From a virus, in the IMG/VR virus record IMGVR_UViG_3300046328_001334, positions 1 to 45,540 of that record: 45,540 nt of DNA. One strand, given 5' to 3'. Every line of letters begins with the position of its first letter. The first letter of the stretch is position 1. The translations under genes and the position numbers were made by a program. The notes below the pieces were generated by a model that worked only from the letters and a program-made list of their open reading frames with translations, was not told where the DNA came from and did no database searches. This document shows positions 4,495 to 40,183 of the stretch, piece by piece.

Positions 4495-4827
4495 TTATTT
4501 ATCTAGCGTTTGTTTACGCTCAAGTTCATCTGCTGTAAATTTATTCAAACCTTTAGCATAATCTAATTCGTGCAATAGCATGTACAACGTACCTATTGGC
4601 TCTGTGCGTATTACATCGTTTATCTGTAATACACTTTGGCTACCTATATGCTGCATTTGTGGTATGCCATTTTCTTTTTGCATATTGGCTTGCATCATGT
4701 GTAATACTAGCTGGTGCTTTACCTCATGTACATTTTTAGCTACTTGGGTAAGCATGGCTTCGGCTTGCTCGTTAAGTACTGCGGTTTCGTATACGGGTTG
4801 GTTATTTACGGTTTTATTTGGTAACAT
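4495..4827 (-). CDS. Hypothetical protein, last gene of the antirepressor unit
   Basis: 110 residues, soluble, Gln- and Met-rich, mostly helical (QAEAMLTQVAKNVHEVKHQLVLHMMQAN). I do not recognise a family. It follows the antirepressor gene by 48 bases and is followed by the 25-nt complementary element and a strong terminator, so the two genes probably form one transcript. Being close to the antirepressor, a role in the lysis-lysogeny choice is possible but unsupported by any motif. Confidence 0.65.
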   Translation of the reverse strand: MLPNKTVNNQPVYETAVLNEQAEAMLTQVAKNVHEVKHQLVLHMMQANMQKENGIPQMQHIGSQSVLQINDVIRTEPIGTLYMLLHELDYAKGLNKFTADELERKQTLDK

Positions 4828-4875
4828 GATTTTTAAGTTTAATTGTTTTTGAAAAAAGAAAATGTGACAATGGGT

Positions 4876-5430
4876 TTACTCGAAATTCCAGAATTGTAGT
4901 TGCGTACTTACATAGTTAGCATCTAAACTATTTAAAGTTGCGGTAACAGCCTTTTTTGCTTGTAACAATGTTTGCAACTCTTCATACTCTGGCAACTGCT
5001 TAATGCGCTGCTGTAGTTCTACAATTTTTCTTTCCTGTAAGGTTTTTTCTTTTAATGCATGTTGCCTATTGGCTAGTACACCGTGAAAATGCTCGTACAG
5101 CACTTCGTAACATTGTAACTTAAAATTCTGTAATTCTTCGCTTTCGCTGTTGATAGAAAATAACCAACCGTAGATAAATTTTTCGGGTAAGCAAAGCATT
5201 TCATAACGCTTTCCATCTGCCCCAGTTGTATGCTGTATAGCATATAACTGACTCAATAATTTGTCTTCTTTGATGTTCTTAAATTGCCTGTCGTAATTAA
5301 CATTTAAGGCGGTGCAAATTGGTTTAATGGCTACCCACCATTTACCATCTGCATGTGTGAGAACAATTGGTTGATTGTTTACCTGTAGTACAGGTATAGA
5401 GCTTTGCTCTGCGTGATTGTTGTTTAGCAT
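4876..5430 (-). CDS. Phage antirepressor, P22_AR_N type
   Basis: 184 residues. Residues about 20-122 match the P22 antirepressor N-terminal domain: HADGKWWVAIKPICTALNVN, an IKEDKLL segment, GADGKRYEMLCLPEKFIYGWLFSIN and LQCYEVLYEHF. The rest is a coiled coil (about 125-165). Such proteins usually bind the phage repressor and release it, triggering lytic growth. The start codon lies in the 3' arm of an 18-bp inverted repeat with its own leader, so expression is probably RNA-controlled. It is unusual to find it inside the late block, between terminase and portal. Confidence 0.85.
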   Translation of the reverse strand: MLNNNHAEQSSIPVLQVNNQPIVLTHADGKWWVAIKPICTALNVNYDRQFKNIKEDKLLSQLYAIQHTTGADGKRYEMLCLPEKFIYGWLFSINSESEELQNFKLQCYEVLYEHFHGVLANRQHALKEKTLQERKIVELQQRIKQLPEYEELQTLLQAKKAVTATLNSLDANYVSTQLQFWNFE

Positions 5431-5575
5431 TTTGTAAAAAAATATAGCCTGATAGTCGGGGTGCTAAACAACAATCACGTTTAAGTGAAGTAGTAAAAGG
5501 ATTGACTACCTTTTCCCCGACCAACAGGCTGATGATAAATTGAATTTGAATTGAGAACATAATTGTTGTTTAGCA
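5412..5575 (-). promoter_or_regulatory. Structured leader RNA of the antirepressor
   Basis: Element 2 (5462-5479) and element 3 (5412-5429, the first codons) are perfect 18-nt complements, so pairing hides the ATG. Element 1 (5562-5575) repeats 14 nt of element 3 and can pair with element 2 instead. Between them, arms 5525-5530/5446-5451 and 5515-5520/5456-5461, plus an inner hairpin 5509-5514/5495-5500, form a long stem followed by a T-rich run (5446-5434). This looks like an attenuator with mutually exclusive folds. Confidence 0.7.
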
Positions 5576-5578
5576 ATT

Positions 5579-5609
5579 CAAAAGTATATAAGGTTTTGCT
5601 TGTGGCAAA
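5579..5609 (-). promoter_or_regulatory. Promoter of the antirepressor unit
   Basis: TTTG at 5609-5606, 19 bases, TACTTTTG at 5586-5579: an exact match to the Bacteroidota housekeeping consensus. Transcription should begin near 5573, so element 1 of the leader would sit at the very 5' end of the RNA. Confidence 0.8.
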
Positions 5610-5676
5610 ATCTTTTTTGTATATCGTTTTAGGTATTGTTTTGTTTATTCTAAAACGGCATATTTAAAGGTTTATT

Positions 5677-5732
5677 GTTAGTAATACTAACATTTTTATT
5701 CTAATGGCGAATATTATGTAAGTATTGCTAAC
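5677..5732. promoter_or_regulatory. Two operator-like palindromes
   Basis: GTTAGTAATACTAAC at 5677-5691 is a perfect 15-bp palindrome around one central base. GTAAGTATTGCTAAC at 5718-5732 keeps the outer half-sites with small changes. Centres are 41 bp apart, close to four helical turns, which suits cooperative binding of a dimeric regulator. They lie about 70-125 bp upstream of the antirepressor promoter. Confidence 0.55.
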
Positions 5733-5742
5733 ATTTAATGCT

Positions 5743-6144
5743 TTACTGCTTTGATAATGTATAGTTGTATACAAAAATTGTTAACCGTTGTAAAGCAGCC
5801 CAGTAAGAGTTTAAGTCAAAAAGAACCAAAGAGCTACTCGTATTTCCTTTTATTAAATAGACATCTGTATATTTTAATTGCCCATTTACATATTTGCCTT
5901 TATTGAATTTTAGCGTATCGCCAATAACGTTATAAAAACTAGTATCAGATACGCTTTTATATCTTCTATACGCTTTACCATCGTTTCTTATTTCCAAATA
6001 ATCACCAGGTAATATTTCCAAATTTACCCCATTAGAAATGTAAGTCCATTTGCCATATAAAATATTTGTGTCTACAGTTTCACTTGTTTTTGCGCAAGCA
6101 GTAAAAAGCAATGTAAGTATTGCAATGGTTGCAAGTTTCTTCAT
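5743..6144 (-). CDS. Lipoprotein, lipocalin-like, probable lysogenic-conversion gene
   Basis: 133 residues from the ATG at 6144. The first 17 residues are a lipoprotein signal: MKK, a hydrophobic core and a lipobox LFTAC with Cys17. The mature part contains ILYGKWTY and repeated beta-strand patterns like small Bacteroidota lipocalin-type lipoproteins. It would be attached to the host envelope. Placed between terminase and antirepressor and flanked by long non-coding stretches, it looks like a moron: a gene useful to the lysogen, for example in blocking other phages or changing the surface. Function not shown. An upstream in-frame ATG would spoil the signal peptide. Confidence 0.7.
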   Translation of the reverse strand: MKKLATIAILTLLFTACAKTSETVDTNILYGKWTYISNGVNLEILPGDYLEIRNDGKAYRRYKSVSDTSFYNVIGDTLKFNKGKYVNGQLKYTDVYLIKGNTSSSLVLFDLNSYWAALQRLTIFVYNYTLSKQ

Positions 6145-6486
6145 AATGTTAATTTTGGCTGCAATATACAATTTGCAGGCGTTTTGGTAGCAATTGTAGG
6201 TTAATTTTTCACCATTTTATAAGGTAATCATTTGGCTACCAATGCAATAAAAATGGTTTTGGTTTTTGCGCAAGCAAAAGCCCAAAGAAAACTGCCGCCC
6301 GCACTATGCCGTTGAGGCGTTCGCAGCCGTCGTTGATTAGGCATATATGTAACGGTGGTTGTTGTATGGTAGTTTTATATATAGTGTTACAAGGTAGTTA
6401 CAAGGCTATAGCATAGCCTATAAGCAACAACAGTTGTATGCTAGGTAGCATACAACTGTTGTGTACATACATATATATATGGTGTG
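6145..6486. other. Intergenic region downstream of the terminase gene
   Basis: 342 bases without a gene. It holds a near-perfect 36-bp palindrome (6427-6462), next to it a smaller inverted repeat (AGGCTAT / ATAGCCT near 6400-6417), and two copies of GTTACAAGG at about 6388 and 6399. The rest (6145-6380) is unremarkable, with a more GC-rich patch near 6295-6335. Confidence 0.6.
6427..6462 (-). terminator. Long palindrome after terL, terminator or structural site
   Basis: Arms 6427-6443 and 6446-6462 match over 17 bp with only GG between them. As RNA this gives a 16-bp stem with a 4-base loop, but no clear T run follows on the minus strand. It may end or stabilise the terminase transcript, or act at the DNA level, as it lies next to terL where packaging sites can occur. 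Confidence 0.55.
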
Positions 6487-8127
6487 CTAGTGGCCTATGA
6501 TGATACTGTTGGTAGCGGCTATACTGGTAAGACTATATTTCAATTTACTCTCTAGCATACCGTACACTAGCATATCTAGCGCATCACTATAGTGTGTTGC
6601 TTCTTCAGCTGGATACTTAGGGTCTTTCTCGGGGTCTTTATTCTTTTCAAATCCATTCTGACCATACTTAGTACCTGCAAGGTTAACTGAGGTAATTAAA
6701 CTTTTACAGTTCTCTCTATTAAACGTAAGCACTCTATCATAGTACTTATCTTCTTGCAGTAAGTGACCATACATTCTATACTTACCTTCATGGCTAGGTG
6801 CTTGCCCCATATACATAGGCTTTACTATCCATCCACCTTTACGCAATGCCGCTATTACATCATCACATATACGTGTCTCTTCTTTGTCAGATACAGCCGT
6901 ATGATCGTACCAGTAATAGATGAGCCGCTTCTTCAATGGCTTGTAGTATTCATTGAATTGCTTTAATACATCCTTCAGTTTAGCAGGATATAATGCGTGT
7001 AACCCATTCAATAGTTTAATCTCACTACCAGTATCTTGGGCTACTACTAACGGGTGTATGCGCCTGTTATAGTCAAGGGCAATGTGCAAGGGTAGGTTAG
7101 GGTTAAGGTCTTTATCCTTTCTGCAATCAAGGGTAGGGTTTAAAAAGTCTATGTGGCTATTGTCAAAGTAGCTTTCGTTCTCGCTGAAGTAACCGTGACG
7201 CTCTTCATCAAAGTCAGGATAAAAGCCATTCTCAAGCTTCATTGGCCTAAGGTTTAATATCTGTGTATCAAACTGAAACTCTGATGTGTCACGCAATTGC
7301 TGCTTAATATAATCTATACCAAGTGCATGTATATTATCTAGAGTAGAAGCTTCATGGTAGTATAGTAAGCCTTTGCGTAAGTCGTTAATCTCATCATCTA
7401 TTATGGCAACTTGTTTGGCTGCTTCGGCTTTTTGCTTTGCATTACCATTGGTAAGTACATAGCGTAATTTAAACTTGCATACTTGGTTTTTAAATATTTC
7501 ATTTACTACCTCAACATCCATTGCACTTAGTTTATCTAAAATCCAACGGCCAGAAGTACCCACAGGCATATCGGTAGTAAAGGTGATGCCATGATGGTAA
7601 GGGTTATTTGCAAATGCCGGTACAATGCCACGATTAGCAGGAAATAATTCAGTGGTTAATTTTTCTTCATTCAACAGCTTGGCTTCATCGCCTTTAATAT
7701 GGTCGATTGTTAAACCATTAGACGAGCCTTTTCTATCCTGACTTATAATGTGATTTCCTGAGCCGTTCCACCAACACATAAAGTACTTAAAGTTCAAAGG
7801 TCTACGGTAAGGGCCTTGCCATTTCCACTTTTTAATCCATGCTTGCGATGGCGTTTCCCCTATTAAGTAATGATGACCATAGATATAACCGATCCGCTCA
7901 AGACCAGCCATATACGCTGGTAATGTTCTAGTTAATGCTTGTGTGTAAGTAGCTGCTATTATTACACCAGTGCTACGTGGCATGGTATTTAAATAACAAT
8001 TGGCATCTTTTGGGGCTAACACCCCCTCGGTTTTACCAGTGCCTCTGCCAGCTACTAAATACTCATTGGGTGCACCAATAATTTGGCTGCGAAGCTGTGG
8101 CTTATTAAAATGTACTTGCTTAATCAT
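6487..8127 (-). CDS. terL: Terminase large subunit
   Basis: 546 residues. The N-terminal ATPase has a Walker A motif GRGTGKT (residues 27-33) and a Walker B-like GLTIDHIKGDEAKLL (about 138-152). The C-terminal nuclease shows the expected acidic sites: ALDYNRR (about 350), YYWYDHTA (about 405) and HYSDALDMLVYG near the end. It cuts and pumps DNA into proheads through the portal. The start overlaps the small-subunit candidate by 8 bases. The portal is not directly downstream: a lipoprotein, an antirepressor and two small genes intervene. Confidence 0.93.
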   Translation of the reverse strand: MIKQVHFNKPQLRSQIIGAPNEYLVAGRGTGKTEGVLAPKDANCYLNTMPRSTGVIIAATYTQALTRTLPAYMAGLERIGYIYGHHYLIGETPSQAWIKKWKWQGPYRRPLNFKYFMCWWNGSGNHIISQDRKGSSNGLTIDHIKGDEAKLLNEEKLTTELFPANRGIVPAFANNPYHHGITFTTDMPVGTSGRWILDKLSAMDVEVVNEIFKNQVCKFKLRYVLTNGNAKQKAEAAKQVAIIDDEINDLRKGLLYYHEASTLDNIHALGIDYIKQQLRDTSEFQFDTQILNLRPMKLENGFYPDFDEERHGYFSENESYFDNSHIDFLNPTLDCRKDKDLNPNLPLHIALDYNRRIHPLVVAQDTGSEIKLLNGLHALYPAKLKDVLKQFNEYYKPLKKRLIYYWYDHTAVSDKEETRICDDVIAALRKGGWIVKPMYMGQAPSHEGKYRMYGHLLQEDKYYDRVLTFNRENCKSLITSVNLAGTKYGQNGFEKNKDPEKDPKYPAEEATHYSDALDMLVYGMLESKLKYSLTSIAATNSIIIGH

Positions 8128-26597: not shown

Positions 26598-29360
26598 ATG
26601 GCATTAAGTTGGAACGAAATAAAAGATAGAGCCTTAAATTTTTCAAAAGAATGGGCTGATACTTCCAACGAAGAAGCAGACGCAAAACCCTTTTTGGTTG
26701 AGTTCTTCAACGTATTTGGCATTAGCAGCAAGCGAGTTTCAACCTTTGAACACCGTGTAAAAAAGTTAGACGATAAAGACGGTTATATTGACCTTCTTTG
26801 GAAAGGCACTATTTTAATAGAAATGAAAAGTAGAGGTAAAAACCTTGACAAAGCCTACCAACAAGCTATTGACTACACTCACGGACTTAAACAACACGAA
26901 TTACCAACGTTTATTTTAATATCAGACTTTGAAAATTTTAGACTGTACGACCTTGAAGACAATTCCGAACGAGGAATTGCAAATGAAAAGTTTACAGAGT
27001 TTAAAATTGGCGACCTTGTAAATAATGTTCAGCATTTTGGTAGTATTTTAGGCTACTCTAAAAAGGTTTATAAAGAGCAAGACCCTGCAAACATTAAAGC
27101 GGCTGAGTTGATGGGTAAACTGCACGACAGACTGGAAGAAATAGGCTACACAGGACACCCATTAGAAGTTTACTTGGTTCGTATTTTATTTTTATTATTT
27201 GCCGAAGACACCACTATTTTTAACAAGCAACAATTTCAAGAATATTTAGAACAGCGAACAGCCGTAGACGGAAGCGACCTTGCAAGTAAACTGCAAGAAT
27301 TGTTTCAAGTATTAAATACACCGAGAGAAAATCGTTTTAAAAATTTGGACGAGCAATTGGCCGACTTTCCATACGTAAACGGAAAACTGTTTGAAGAAAA
27401 CTTGCCTACGGCAAGTTTTGATACAAAAATGCGTCAAGCCTTACTTGACTGCTGTTACATTGATTGGAGTAAAATATCGCCAGCGATATTTGGTTCCATG
27501 TTTCAAAGTGTAATGAACCCAAAAGAACGCAGAAACTTGGGTGCACATTATACCAGCGAAAAAAATATTCTTAAACTTATAAAACCACTTTTCTTAGACG
27601 AACTTTGGAAAGAATTTGAAAACATAAAGGATAACAAAAACAAACTTCCCGAATTTCATAAAAAGCTAAGCACACTTAAATTTCTTGACCCTGCTTGTGG
27701 TTGCGGAAACTTTCTTGTAATTACATACCGAGAATTACGTTTGTTGGAATTAGAGATTTTAAGAGTATTAAATAAATCAGGACAAAGAGTAATTGATGTA
27801 AGAGAAATTATTTGGCTTGACGTAGATATGATGTGCGGCATTGAATATGAAGAATTTCCTGCACGTATTGCCGAAGTAGCCATGTGGCTGATAGACCACC
27901 AAATGAATATGCAAATAAGCAATGAATTTGGGCAATACTTTGTGCGATTGCCACTTAAAAAAGCGGCTAAAATTGTTCACGGTGATGCCTTAGAAATGGA
28001 CTGGGAAAACATTGTTTCTAAAAATGAACTTTCTTTTATTCTTGGTAATCCGCCTTTTATTGGTTCTAAAATAATGAAGCAAAGCCAACGTGACCAAATT
28101 GTAAAACAGTTTGACAATGCAGATGGTAGCGGAGTTTTAGACTATGTAACAGGTTGGTATATTAAAGCAGCTAAATTTATTCAAGACACAAAAATTAAAG
28201 TTGGGTTTGTTTCTACTAACTCAATTGTTCAAGGCGAACAAACGAGCATACTTTGGGGTCATATGTTGAATAAACACAAAATAAAAATTCATTTTGCTCA
28301 CCGAACTTTTAAATGGAGAAACGAAGCAAAAGGAAATGCAGCAGTTTATTGTGTGATAGTAGGCTTCGCCAACTACGACACTAATAACAAGAGCATTTTT
28401 GAGTATGAAGATATTAAAGGCGAAGCCCACGAAATAAAAGCAAAAAATATTAATCCGTATTTGGTTGATGCAAAAGATTTATTGATAAACAAAAGTTCTA
28501 ATCCTATTTGCAATGTTCCGAAAATGAATTTTGGAAATATTGCTTTAGACAGCGGATATTTAATTTTTACAGAAGAAGAGAAAAATGAATTTATTCTAAA
28601 AGAACCTAAATCAGAGAAATGGTTTAAAAAATTACTCGGAGCAATAGAGCTTTTATATAATAAAACCCGTTGGTGTTTATGGCTGGTTGACATTGAGCCA
28701 AATGAATTAAAATCAATGCCTCTAGTACTTGAAAGGATAAGCAAAGTAAAAGAAGCACGACTCAAAGCAAATGATAAAGGAACGCAACGCCTTGCTGAAA
28801 GAGCATCACAGTTTCGAGATTTAAATAATCCTGAAAAATATATTGCTATTCCAATCACAACTGGAGAAAGTAGAAAATACATTCCAATTATATATGCGGA
28901 TAAAACTTTAATACCTGCTGTAACTGTTCAAGCGATTCCTAGTGCAAATCTTTATCACTTTGGAGTTCTAATGTCCTCAATGCATATGGCTTGGGTTAAA
29001 ACAGTATGTGGTAGATTGAAGAGTGATTTTAGGTATTCAAAAGATATTGTTTACAATAATTATCCTTGGCCAGACAATCCAAACGACAAACAACTCAAAG
29101 CAATTGAAACAGCATCACAAAAAGTATTGGATGCAAGACTGCAATTTCCTAACAGTTCACTTGCTGACCTTTACGACCCATTGACAATGCCACCAACATT
29201 GGTAAAAGCACACAATGAATTAGACAAAGCCGTTGACTTGGCTTATAGACCACAACCGTTTACAAGTGAAGCTAACAGAATGGTATTTTTATTTGAGCTT
29301 TACGAAAAATATACGGCAGATTTATTTACAAAAGAGAAAGTAAAGAAAATTAAAAAATGA
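26598..29360 (+). CDS. MmeI-like single-chain restriction-modification enzyme (type IIL)
   Basis: 920 residues, the size of the MmeI family. N-terminal nuclease: Asp65, then Glu75-x-Lys77 in DLLWKGTILIEMKSRG, giving the D-X9-EXK spacing of MmeI. A helical spacer follows, then a gamma-type adenine methylase: motif I DPACGCGNF (364-372) and motif IV NPPF (484-487). The rest is the target-recognition and C-terminal region. One chain would methylate and cut the same site, defending host and prophage. It is one of two plus-strand genes and looks more A-rich, with different codon use. It is intact with no frameshift. Confidence 0.9.
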   Translation: MALSWNEIKDRALNFSKEWADTSNEEADAKPFLVEFFNVFGISSKRVSTFEHRVKKLDDKDGYIDLLWKGTILIEMKSRGKNLDKAYQQAIDYTHGLKQHELPTFILISDFENFRLYDLEDNSERGIANEKFTEFKIGDLVNNVQHFGSILGYSKKVYKEQDPANIKAAELMGKLHDRLEEIGYTGHPLEVYLVRILFLLFAEDTTIFNKQQFQEYLEQRTAVDGSDLASKLQELFQVLNTPRENRFKNLDEQLADFPYVNGKLFEENLPTASFDTKMRQALLDCCYIDWSKISPAIFGSMFQSVMNPKERRNLGAHYTSEKNILKLIKPLFLDELWKEFENIKDNKNKLPEFHKKLSTLKFLDPACGCGNFLVITYRELRLLELEILRVLNKSGQRVIDVREIIWLDVDMMCGIEYEEFPARIAEVAMWLIDHQMNMQISNEFGQYFVRLPLKKAAKIVHGDALEMDWENIVSKNELSFILGNPPFIGSKIMKQSQRDQIVKQFDNADGSGVLDYVTGWYIKAAKFIQDTKIKVGFVSTNSIVQGEQTSILWGHMLNKHKIKIHFAHRTFKWRNEAKGNAAVYCVIVGFANYDTNNKSIFEYEDIKGEAHEIKAKNINPYLVDAKDLLINKSSNPICNVPKMNFGNIALDSGYLIFTEEEKNEFILKEPKSEKWFKKLLGAIELLYNKTRWCLWLVDIEPNELKSMPLVLERISKVKEARLKANDKGTQRLAERASQFRDLNNPEKYIAIPITTGESRKYIPIIYADKTLIPAVTVQAIPSANLYHFGVLMSSMHMAWVKTVCGRLKSDFRYSKDIVYNNYPWPDNPNDKQLKAIETASQKVLDARLQFPNSSLADLYDPLTMPPTLVKAHNELDKAVDLAYRPQPFTSEANRMVFLFELYEKYTADLFTKEKVKKIKK

Positions 29361-35862: not shown

Positions 35863-37470
35863 TTAAGCAGTTTTAAGCTGCTGAACAAAAAGAAGTAAGT
35901 TTGTAAGTGAATTAAAAGCATTTGAGGGTTCGATTATAGTCCCTTCAAGTCCACTTTTAAAATTTCTTTCCAAACTGAAGGGTTGTTGGTCTAAAACCAA
36001 CAGCCCTTTTTCTTTCATTATCAGCGTGTTGTGAGTAAATATTGGCATCATGTAAGGGGTTCGATACGTTCCCCCAGAATAGTACAAACGTGAGTCGAAC
36101 CCCAGCCTTATAAGCTGTTGCTTATCGTTTGTACTACCAATTTCATATAAATAATGTAGGTCAGAAAGCTTTTCCAATTCGTCTTGAACCAAATACCAAA
36201 TATGTTTTTCTTCCTGTTGTAATTTGTCAAGCTGTGCATTTACAGCTATGCGTTGCTGGCTATGGTGACTGTGCCAACGTTGATAGCTTTCAAAATTCAA
36301 TTGGTTAGCTATCCATTTTTCTTCTACACTGTACAATTTGGCTTCGCAGTCTTCTAAATCTTTAGCAAGTTGCTTAATTCGGTGTTTGTTTTCCTTTTGC
36401 TCAACTTCTAAATCAACAGTAGTTTGGTGCTTTATGGCTGTGATCAGGCGCTGTGGTAGGCTCATAAGCTTTAAAACTTCCACAAGCTGGCCATGCGCTT
36501 TCTTTACACTTAGGTTTAAGTGTGTAGAGGTAGCACATTTGTAATAGAAGAATTTACCACCGTGGCGGCCTGTACTGGCTGCACCGGTTACTGCTTTACC
36601 GCAGTGGCACTTTAAAACCCCACGCAGTGGCATTTCATCGCTTACAATAACCTTGGTGGTACCACCCTTTAATTTATGCTGAGTGGCTAGCCATTGTGTA
36701 CGGCTTATGATAGGCTCATGGCTTGCTTCTACAATTTCGGCTGGTTTGTCTTGGTAAGCTTTCACCGTTAATAAACTGGTGTAAGCTTGCCTAGTGAGTA
36801 TTTTGGTAATGGCGCTATTGCCACTTTGTGTAAAGCCCATTGCAGTAGCTTGCTTGCGTATTTCTAGGATAGGCACATCTGCATTGTATGCGTCAAAAAT
36901 GAAGCGTACAATTTTAGCCGGCTTTTCATCTATTACCAAAATGGGTACTTTCTTCTCGTTCAGTACCTTTTTGTAGCCAAATGGTGCTGCGCCTATATAG
37001 CGGCCTTCTTTCTTCTTAGCTGTGTAAATGCCTGCGTTTATTTTACCTGCACGACGAATATTATCATCTTCAGCTAGTAACAACTGCAAGCCAGTACGAA
37101 AAAAAGAACCGGGATTAGTATAGTCAAATGTTAACCCTTCATTTACACCTACAATTTGAATACGATACAACTTCTGCAATTGCTTTATCATGGTAATGGC
37201 TTCGCCAGCATCACGACTAAACCTGTCAAGCTCTTGCACCACCAAATAGTTTACGCTTTTATGGTGCTTTTGAATAAAGGCTTTTAGCTTGGCCATATCG
37301 GGCCTATCAAATGTTTTGGCGCTGTAGCCTTCATCGGTAAACGTATCTATCACCGTAACATTATTCCTCTCGCACCACTCTAAGGTGCGCATGTCCTGAC
37401 CTTGGATTGAGAAGTGGCTTTGTTTGTCGGTTGAGATGCGTAGGTAACGGATGGCTGTTTTCTGAATCAT
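35863..37470 (-). CDS. Large serine recombinase (integrase)
   Basis: 535 residues. N-terminal resolvase domain with catalytic Ser13 (YLRISTDKQS) and QELDRFSRD at 79-87. Recombinase domain about 150-250 (GAAPFGYKKV). Zinc ribbon with LKCHCGKAVTG and a later YYKCATSTH, then a long coiled coil (about 350-430), as in integrases that use attP/attB. It would integrate and, with a partner, excise the phage. It is co-oriented with the early genes and overlaps the preceding small ORF by 110 bases. No attachment site could be identified from a single sequence. Confidence 0.93.
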   Translation of the reverse strand: MIQKTAIRYLRISTDKQSHFSIQGQDMRTLEWCERNNVTVIDTFTDEGYSAKTFDRPDMAKLKAFIQKHHKSVNYLVVQELDRFSRDAGEAITMIKQLQKLYRIQIVGVNEGLTFDYTNPGSFFRTGLQLLLAEDDNIRRAGKINAGIYTAKKKEGRYIGAAPFGYKKVLNEKKVPILVIDEKPAKIVRFIFDAYNADVPILEIRKQATAMGFTQSGNSAITKILTRQAYTSLLTVKAYQDKPAEIVEASHEPIISRTQWLATQHKLKGGTTKVIVSDEMPLRGVLKCHCGKAVTGAASTGRHGGKFFYYKCATSTHLNLSVKKAHGQLVEVLKLMSLPQRLITAIKHQTTVDLEVEQKENKHRIKQLAKDLEDCEAKLYSVEEKWIANQLNFESYQRWHSHHSQQRIAVNAQLDKLQQEEKHIWYLVQDELEKLSDLHYLYEIGSTNDKQQLIRLGFDSRLYYSGGTYRTPYMMPIFTHNTLIMKEKGLLVLDQQPFSLERNFKSGLEGTIIEPSNAFNSLTNLLLFVQQLKTA

Positions 37471-39745: not shown

Positions 39746-40183
39746 ATGCTACAGATTAACAAGAAGTTAAAGCAAGCCAGAGAAATGGTAGGTTTAACAC
39801 AACAACAGCTGGCCGAATGGATGCAGATAAGTGCGCATTCGGTAATTAGTGCTTACGAAAAAGGCACAAAAAAGGGTATATCAGAGCAGTATTTAGAGTT
39901 TATGATCACAAACAAGTTTGACTTGAACACGCTGTTTGATAATAGTAAAGAATTAAAGCAATTGCCAGAAGAAGGTGAGAACCGTTATAAGCAATTGGAA
40001 ACTGTTACGAATTATTTTACTGAACCTGCTGAAGCAAGTAAAGACAAGTATGTAGCGCTTTTGCAACAGCAAGTAGATATGCTAAGTAGCGATAAAGTAG
40101 AACTGCAGAAAACCATTGATGAATTGCAAGAGCAGCTAAGATTTATGCGCTCAAATACCAATGGCCGTGCAAAATCCGCTTAG
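39746..40183 (+). CDS. Phage repressor, HTH_3 (cI-like)
   Basis: 145 residues. Helix-turn-helix at about 4-40 (INKKLKQAREMVGLTQQQLAEWMQISAHSVISAYEKG), then a flexible linker and a C-terminal coiled coil (about 95-135, LLQQQVDMLSSDKVELQKTIDELQEQLRFM) that would dimerise. It lacks a LexA-type cleavage domain, so induction is unlikely to be by RecA self-cleavage; the antirepressor at 4876-5430 is the natural inducer. It diverges from the early operon and is convergent with the late block. Confidence 0.85.
   Translation: MLQINKKLKQAREMVGLTQQQLAEWMQISAHSVISAYEKGTKKGISEQYLEFMITNKFDLNTLFDNSKELKQLPEEGENRYKQLETVTNYFTEPAEASKDKYVALLQQQVDMLSSDKVELQKTIDELQEQLRFMRSNTNGRAKSA

Follow-up and report, generated by a model that had tools for sequence, protein, structure and literature searches.

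Organization of the antirepressor leader

The window analysed here is the whole of a 45.5-kb virus record, and all positions without a locus prefix refer to it; the leader and the antirepressor gene that it precedes are read on the minus strand (Table 1). The antirepressor carries a P22_AR_N domain, with a score of 80.2 bits against PF10547 for a cut-off of 30.7. The setting is temperate, with genes for an HTH repressor (39746-40183) and a serine recombinase (35863-37470), and the antirepressor gene (ant) is placed among late genes, as is also the case in P22.

A sequence-only reading of this region had proposed three competing elements around an attenuator, in which element 2 pairs either with element 3, at the start codon, over 18 bp, or with element 1, at the RNA 5' end, over 14 bp, a long stem ending in a T run lying between them. 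The coordinates and arms given there were correct. Element 2, called the guide below, is complementary to element 3 at 18 of 18 positions (2:3 pairing). The 1:2 pairing does contain 14 exact pairs, but 14 bp understates its length: 5462-5481 and 5556-5575 are 90% complementary over 20 nt and pair at all 20 positions once G.U is counted (two G.U for the guide against 5558-5575). The long stem has 16 bp with one mismatch and the T run follows it, which gives the leader the stable, G+C-rich stem and U tract that define an intrinsic terminator or attenuator; a simple terminator scanner missed it because its loop is longer than 8 nt. The core, next to the 5' arm of this stem, forms a perfect hairpin, AAAAGG-TAGTCAAT-CCTTTT (5514-5495). 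On the plus strand, a terminator-like hairpin with a T run (5590-5614) overlaps the spacer and -33 side of the ant promoter, and no plus-strand gene ends there.

Table 1. Features of the leader and antirepressor gene in the window. L011, L154 and L010 are relatives with the complete layout and L243 belongs to a possible partial relative (see text).
Feature	Position	Strand	Evidence or remark
Antirepressor gene, P22_AR_N domain, 184 aa	4876-5430	-	Pfam PF10547, E 1.7e-22; PHROG 524 anti-repressor Ant, E 3e-20
-33 element TTTG, Bacteroidota-type promoter	5606-5609	-	Sequence; 19-nt spacer to -7 box; consensus TTTG/TANNTTTG from PMC6847099
-7 element TACTTTTG	5579-5586	-	Equal offset from element 1 in L011 (one mismatch), L154, L010 and L243
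Predicted transcription start, +1 = G in all members	5574	-	Spacing from PMC6847099 (G of -7 element at -5)
Element 1, copy of the start-codon region at the RNA 5' end	5558-5575	-	Pairs with guide, 14 exact, longer with G.U
5' arm of long terminator-like stem, AGCCTGTTGGTCGGGG	5515-5530	-	3 compensatory pairs among 3 members
Invariant core AAAAGGTAGTCAATCCTTTT, 6-bp hairpin with 8-nt loop	5495-5514	-	Identical in window, L011 and L154
Element 2 (guide)	5462-5479	-	In long-stem loop; complementary to element 3 (18/18) and element 1
3' arm of long stem, CCCCGACTATCAGGCT, directly abutting the guide	5446-5461	-	Pairing and compensatory changes
T run after long stem, intrinsic-terminator-like	~5436-5442	-	Sequence; T-rich tails also in L011, L154 and L010
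Element 3, to which the guide pairs; spans ant +2 to +19, from start codon to codon 7	5412-5429	-	Complementarity to guide
Doubtful open frame of 72 codons, through the leader and past the ant ATG	5342-5560	-	Open in three members, broken in L010

Promoter and predicted RNA start

The promoter, TTTG-19-TACTTTTG (5609-5579, minus strand), is exact, as the sequence-only reading had stated in placing the RNA start near 5573. In F. johnsoniae the G of the -7 element TANNTTTG sits at -5 (PMC6847099). By this rule the +1 of the window is G5574, the second base of element 1, and the RNA is therefore predicted to begin inside element 1. The predicted +1 falls on the G of TGC in element 1 at all five loci (window, L011, L154, L010 and L243); the -7 box stands at a fixed offset and is exact in four of them (window, L154, L010, L243), with one mismatch in L011. 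An exact -7 box occurs in the window with a frequency of 3e-4 per position. Bacteroidota lack Shine-Dalgarno sequences, and structure in the start region affects initiation (PMC6847099).

Departure of the complementarities from chance

Guide and element 3 form the only inverted repeat of at least 18 nt within 200 nt in the window; 60 first-order Markov shuffles of the window yielded none of 18 nt and none even of 14 nt. When sites for the element were sought in this phage with up to three mismatches, three were found for 0.12 expected; all were elements 1, 2 and 3 themselves, the guide having no further site elsewhere. Folding of the 201-nt leader gave z = -6.9, that of the 102-nt terminator domain alone z = -7.0, and the upstream-to-start complementarity of the window z = -6.8.

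Relatives of the leader and the genes that they precede

The complete layout was found at four loci, the window, L011, L154 and L010. L011 (IMG/VR) was found with the P22_AR_N protein profile; its antirepressor is 44-46% identical to that of the window, and its leader keeps the scaffold with a different guide. A scan for the 16-nt core AAGGTAGTCAATCCTT returned 24 stretches, two of which carried the module, namely L011's contig and L154. The gene controlled in L154 encodes an AntA antirepressor (PF08346, E 3.2e-25), which is unrelated in sequence family to P22_AR_N; the U tract of this leader is weak. L010 emerged from a screen of all collected loci for the combination of guide, target and upstream copy. 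It lies in a Bacteroidia-class genome, in a prophage-like region with phage-like genes nearby, one of them apparently an integrase. Its target is a 148-aa gene of no confident family, just downstream of a P22_AR_N gene; here the controlled gene is not a recognisable antirepressor.

A further chromosomal leader, from another Bacteroidia-class genome (L238/L243, on G102:C24, 3 kb, element 1 at L238:1508), has the -7 box at the usual offset, element 1, an 11-bp stem and a guide that matches element 1 at 17 of 18 positions. Guide and start of the downstream 93-aa gene pair over only 7 bp. It may be a partial relative, either degenerate or with its target elsewhere.

Both pairings are kept while guides change

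In a gap-free alignment on the ATG, the core stands 84 nt before the ATG in the window, L011 and L154. In each of the four members the guide pairs with positions +2 to +18 of its own gene at 17 of 17 positions. Non-cognate combinations of guide and target give 8-15 pairs of 17, with a loss of about 8-16 kcal/mol. Element 1 pairs with the guide at 17, 16, 17 and 17 of 17 positions (window, L011, L154, L010), and six of the seven differences between element 1 and target are C->T changes, each of which leaves a G.U with the guide. The long stem is paired at 15, 15 and 16 of 16 positions in the window, L011 and L154, with three compensatory changes. Across these three members 97% of the cells are paired, compared with at most 62% when the arms are slid; a shuffle control gave 19/500, its power being limited by only three sequences.

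The guide, element 1 and target pairings persist across differing guides; therefore, two pairings that share one strand have both been kept while that strand was rewritten. Judging from these alignments, neither a DNA operator, nor chance, nor coding sequence would predict this. The sequence-only reading had named its own weak points, an RNA start downstream of element 1 and the loss of one of the pairings in homologues. The predicted start lies inside element 1 in the window and in three relatives, and homologues keep both pairings (2:3 at 17/17 in all four members, 1:2 at 16-17 of 17). In this computational test neither objection held, because layout, predicted RNA start and terminator-like stem are conserved in three independent relatives with different guides.

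Searches for further members

Of the 395 genomes sampled from the class Bacteroidia, 2 carried P22_AR_N, which is thus rare there. Comparable complementarity was absent from the other P22_AR_N leaders examined, L007 (Nitratiruptor phage NrS-3) excepted. In this phage a hairpin, CTCCTATAA...TTATAGGAG, lies about 60 nt before the antirepressor ATG at 1195; as read from its sequence it would hide a Shine-Dalgarno-like sequence, a different and simpler leader control of a P22_AR_N gene.

In viral contigs, a 14-mer scan for the elements alone gave chance matches only, a strict hairpin pattern gave none, and a codon-degenerate scan for the leader peptide gave 27 stretches, of which only L154 and L011, already known, were related, the other 25 being unrelated. 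The core pattern with up to three mismatches matched in six of 396 genomes, with no excess over the reversed-pattern control. A covariance model (R1) gave 25 matches in 395 Bacteroidia-class genomes, and no layout of guide, target and element 1 was present among those examined; the top two were perfect ordinary hairpins and were rejected. In the window the covariance model also matched, on both strands (E ~0.1), a short G+C-rich hairpin in the serine recombinase gene (35967-36019), which is probably a chance palindrome. The three-element pattern matched in seven Bacteroidia-class genomes, which contributed one true member (L010) and one partial member (L238/L243). No further leader was found among homologues of the L010 and L238 genes. 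The device looks either rare or fast-evolving.

Stability of the competing structures and alternative explanations

The leader could be a purely cis-acting conformational switch, in which co-transcriptional 1:2 pairing serves as antiterminator and liberator of the start codon and in which, failing this, the terminator and the 2:3 pairing silence ant, no RNA being supplied in trans. By nested folding, which is blind to the coexistence of 1:2 or 2:3 with the terminator as pseudoknots, the terminator and 1:2 forms of the terminated RNA are nearly equal in the window (-35.8 and -34.2 kcal/mol), and the minimum predicted for L010 is the 1:2 form; both results suit a switch, as does the conservation of element 1 in every member. 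However, the terminator form is ahead of the 1:2 form by 6-8 kcal/mol in L011 and L154. As isolated duplexes, 2:3 and 1:2 have energies of -26.7 and -23.3 kcal/mol in the window, -23.9 and -19.8 in L011, -26.0 and -25.8 in L154, and -24.7 and -21.3 in L010, and 2:3 is thus the stronger in every member. In these models the state that frees the ATG is unfavoured by thermodynamics alone. A role for 1:2 would have to be kinetic, since RNA polymerase reaches elements 1 and 2 ahead of the terminator's second arm and of element 3, or else one of binding an RNA that comes in trans. As loop-to-tail pairings, 1:2 and 2:3 both cross the terminator stem, and either may thus form a pseudoknot with it.

No ligand, protein site or other signal that would choose between the states is visible, and diversification of the guide between phages is what specificity in trans predicts. 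A trans-acting antisense RNA fits at least as well as a cis switch, because the guide is presented in the loop of a terminator, as in antisense small RNAs. We consider a purely cis-acting switch unlikely. Of the switch put forward in the sequence-only reading, the layout, the predicted RNA start and the terminator-like stem were borne out in three relatives, and the cis step in which 1:2 frees the ATG was not, 2:3 being stabler than 1:2 throughout. That the leader decides whether the phage makes its inducer would be plausible for a temperate phage.

Translation-coupled attenuation is very improbable. In such a scheme, ribosomes making a leader peptide would begin just after element 1, run through the stem and beyond the ant start, and so melt the terminator and 2:3; the guide would prevent this when paired with element 1, a control comparable to icd in P1 immI. 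A frame is indeed open for 72, 56 and 55 codons in the window, L011 and L154, its ATG lying 15-17 nt after the start of element 1; the distance from ATG to core differs only by multiples of 3, and the chance of such openness is 4-9% each. However, substitutions are not concentrated at third codon positions, the frame is closed inside the loop in L010, and the codon-degenerate scan of viral contigs found no synonymous versions. A feature acting at the DNA level, either the operator of a dimeric regulator or a DNA inversion site between the inverted copies, can hardly be upheld, since the long perfect inverted repeat at the gene start that might suggest it is wholly replaced between phages with its complementarity kept and with differences of the G.U type, has the same orientation at 4/4 loci, and encloses a stem that covaries.

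Comparison with known antisense systems

A few proteobacterial phages are known to control their antirepressors with antisense RNA (C4, sar). The leader matched neither C4 (RF01695) nor sRNA-Xcc1 (RF02221), over the whole window at the gathering threshold and over 4800-6200 at E<=10. Rfam searches of the window and of the local region (E<=10) gave only chance matches of the microRNA or snoRNA type below gathering, and no bacterial RNA family in the leader.

C4 of P1 and P7 is derived from the ant operon transcript and pairs with the translation start, and differences in its loops set phage specificity (PMC5320573; PMC8201110; PMC10695390); a conserved motif, c4-a1b1, accompanies it (PMC2864571). 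The leader resembles C4 in being a putative small structured RNA within the antirepressor's own transcript, upstream of ant and on the same strand; in its complementarity to the translation start of an antirepressor on that strand (window, L011, L154); and in guide loops that differ between phages, as do the loops that set specificity in C4 (PMC5320573). It differs in several respects. First, C4 has two short loops, a' and b', whereas the leader has one continuous guide of 17-18 nt in one loop. Second, C4 is a three-stem RNA processed by RNase P (GGW), whereas the guide of the leader lies in the loop of a terminator-like stem. Third, the promoter of the leader is of the Bacteroidota type and the guide's target opens at the start codon instead of at a Shine-Dalgarno sequence. 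The motif c4-a1b1 (Weinberg 2010) bears a name that suggests a second complementary copy, like element 1.

Like the proposed guide RNA, sar of P22 (RF00262) is antisense to the start of a P22_AR_N antirepressor gene, but sar is made from the opposite strand of the arc-ant gap, whereas the guide is on the same strand and transcript as its target. The Rfam scan found sar only on P22 itself (L004). It also found the C4-like sRNA-Xcc1 in a Pasteurella phage (L005:1091-1176) and a Mannheimia phage (L006:1066-1152), upstream of annotated P22_AR_N antirepressors and itself unannotated there. For an antisense-guide reading, sar on P22 ant and sRNA-Xcc1 upstream of these two Pasteurellaceae genes are a precedent in the same gene family.

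In plasmids pT181 and pIP501, an antisense RNA controls the choice made by a transcriptional attenuator. The leader resembles the targets of RNAI of pT181 and RNAIII of pIP501 in choosing between a terminator and an alternative pairing, the tipping of this choice by an antisense RNA being a supposition in the phage; the plasmid antisense RNAs are counter-transcribed, whereas the phage guide would arise by termination of transcription from the promoter that also serves its target. The parallels with C4 and sar lie in function but no Rfam family matches; therefore, we read the leader as an independent antisense-guide module, C4-like in action and outside the C4 family.

Proposed role as an antisense guide RNA

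We consider it probable that the leader encodes an antisense guide RNA which limits antirepressor synthesis and is made by termination of the antirepressor's own transcript, as a functional analogue of C4 and sar. Since the device recurs in unrelated phages, each with a guide of its own that fits its own gene, the leader is in more general terms very probably a re-targetable RNA brake. The sequences themselves provide three elements in exact register, their conservation through guide replacement, covariation of the stem, the position of the promoter, and modularity across unrelated genes; from these we infer the production and termination of an RNA, repression, action in trans, and the roles of immunity and of element 1.

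Transcription from the phage's own promoter would start at element 1, and most polymerases would stop at the stem and U run, giving an RNA of about 135-140 nt with a large loop that exposes the guide. Pairing of the guide with ant mRNA, at the start codon and the codons next to it, would block initiation on read-through transcripts, whether the guide belongs to another RNA (in trans) or to the transcript itself (in cis); the cis 2:3 helix in read-through RNA is very stable, so that action in trans is not required. In a lysogen, the inducer would be kept off and related phages would meet a guide-specific immunity. Element 1, at the extreme 5' end, would be a second, slightly weaker site for the same guide. 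Its likeliest role would be to make the choice of nascent transcripts between termination and read-through depend on guide RNA already present or, where there is none, on the guide of the transcript itself.

A more far-reaching possibility, which we advance tentatively, is that Bacteroidota phages possess a modular immunity circuit, guided by RNA and re-targetable. Guide RNA made by terminating its own target's transcript would bind new transcripts at their 5' end (element 1), thereby enforce further termination, and block the start codons of those that read through. The loop would be self-sustaining, guides would diverge into incompatible specificities, and the module would have moved before unrelated genes.

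The antisense-guide module would apparently be an independent solution in phages with Bacteroidota-type promoters, one scaffold standing before two unrelated antirepressor families; known RNA regulators are few in such organisms, and Shine-Dalgarno pairing is absent. The wholesale replacement of guides, with the three copies still complementary, predicts orthogonal, swappable guides and guide-based superinfection immunity. With four loci, the concerted evolution of the three copies becomes testable, selection alone being set against templated copying within the quasi-palindrome.

Other features of the window

Near both ends of the contig (1-1333 and 44168-45414) lies a gene pair, encoding a lipoprotein or Rz-like protein (MKTTYYQLL...) and a DUF5675 protein, in similar but not identical versions; it is either a duplicated late cassette or an assembly feature. 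Most genes of the window are on the minus strand, and an MmeI-type restriction-modification enzyme (26598-29360) is encoded by one of the few on the plus strand. Between the genes at 5743-6144 and 6487-8127, a perfect inverted repeat, ACAACAGTTGTATGCTA/TAGCATACAACTGTTGT (6427-6462), is probably a terminator.
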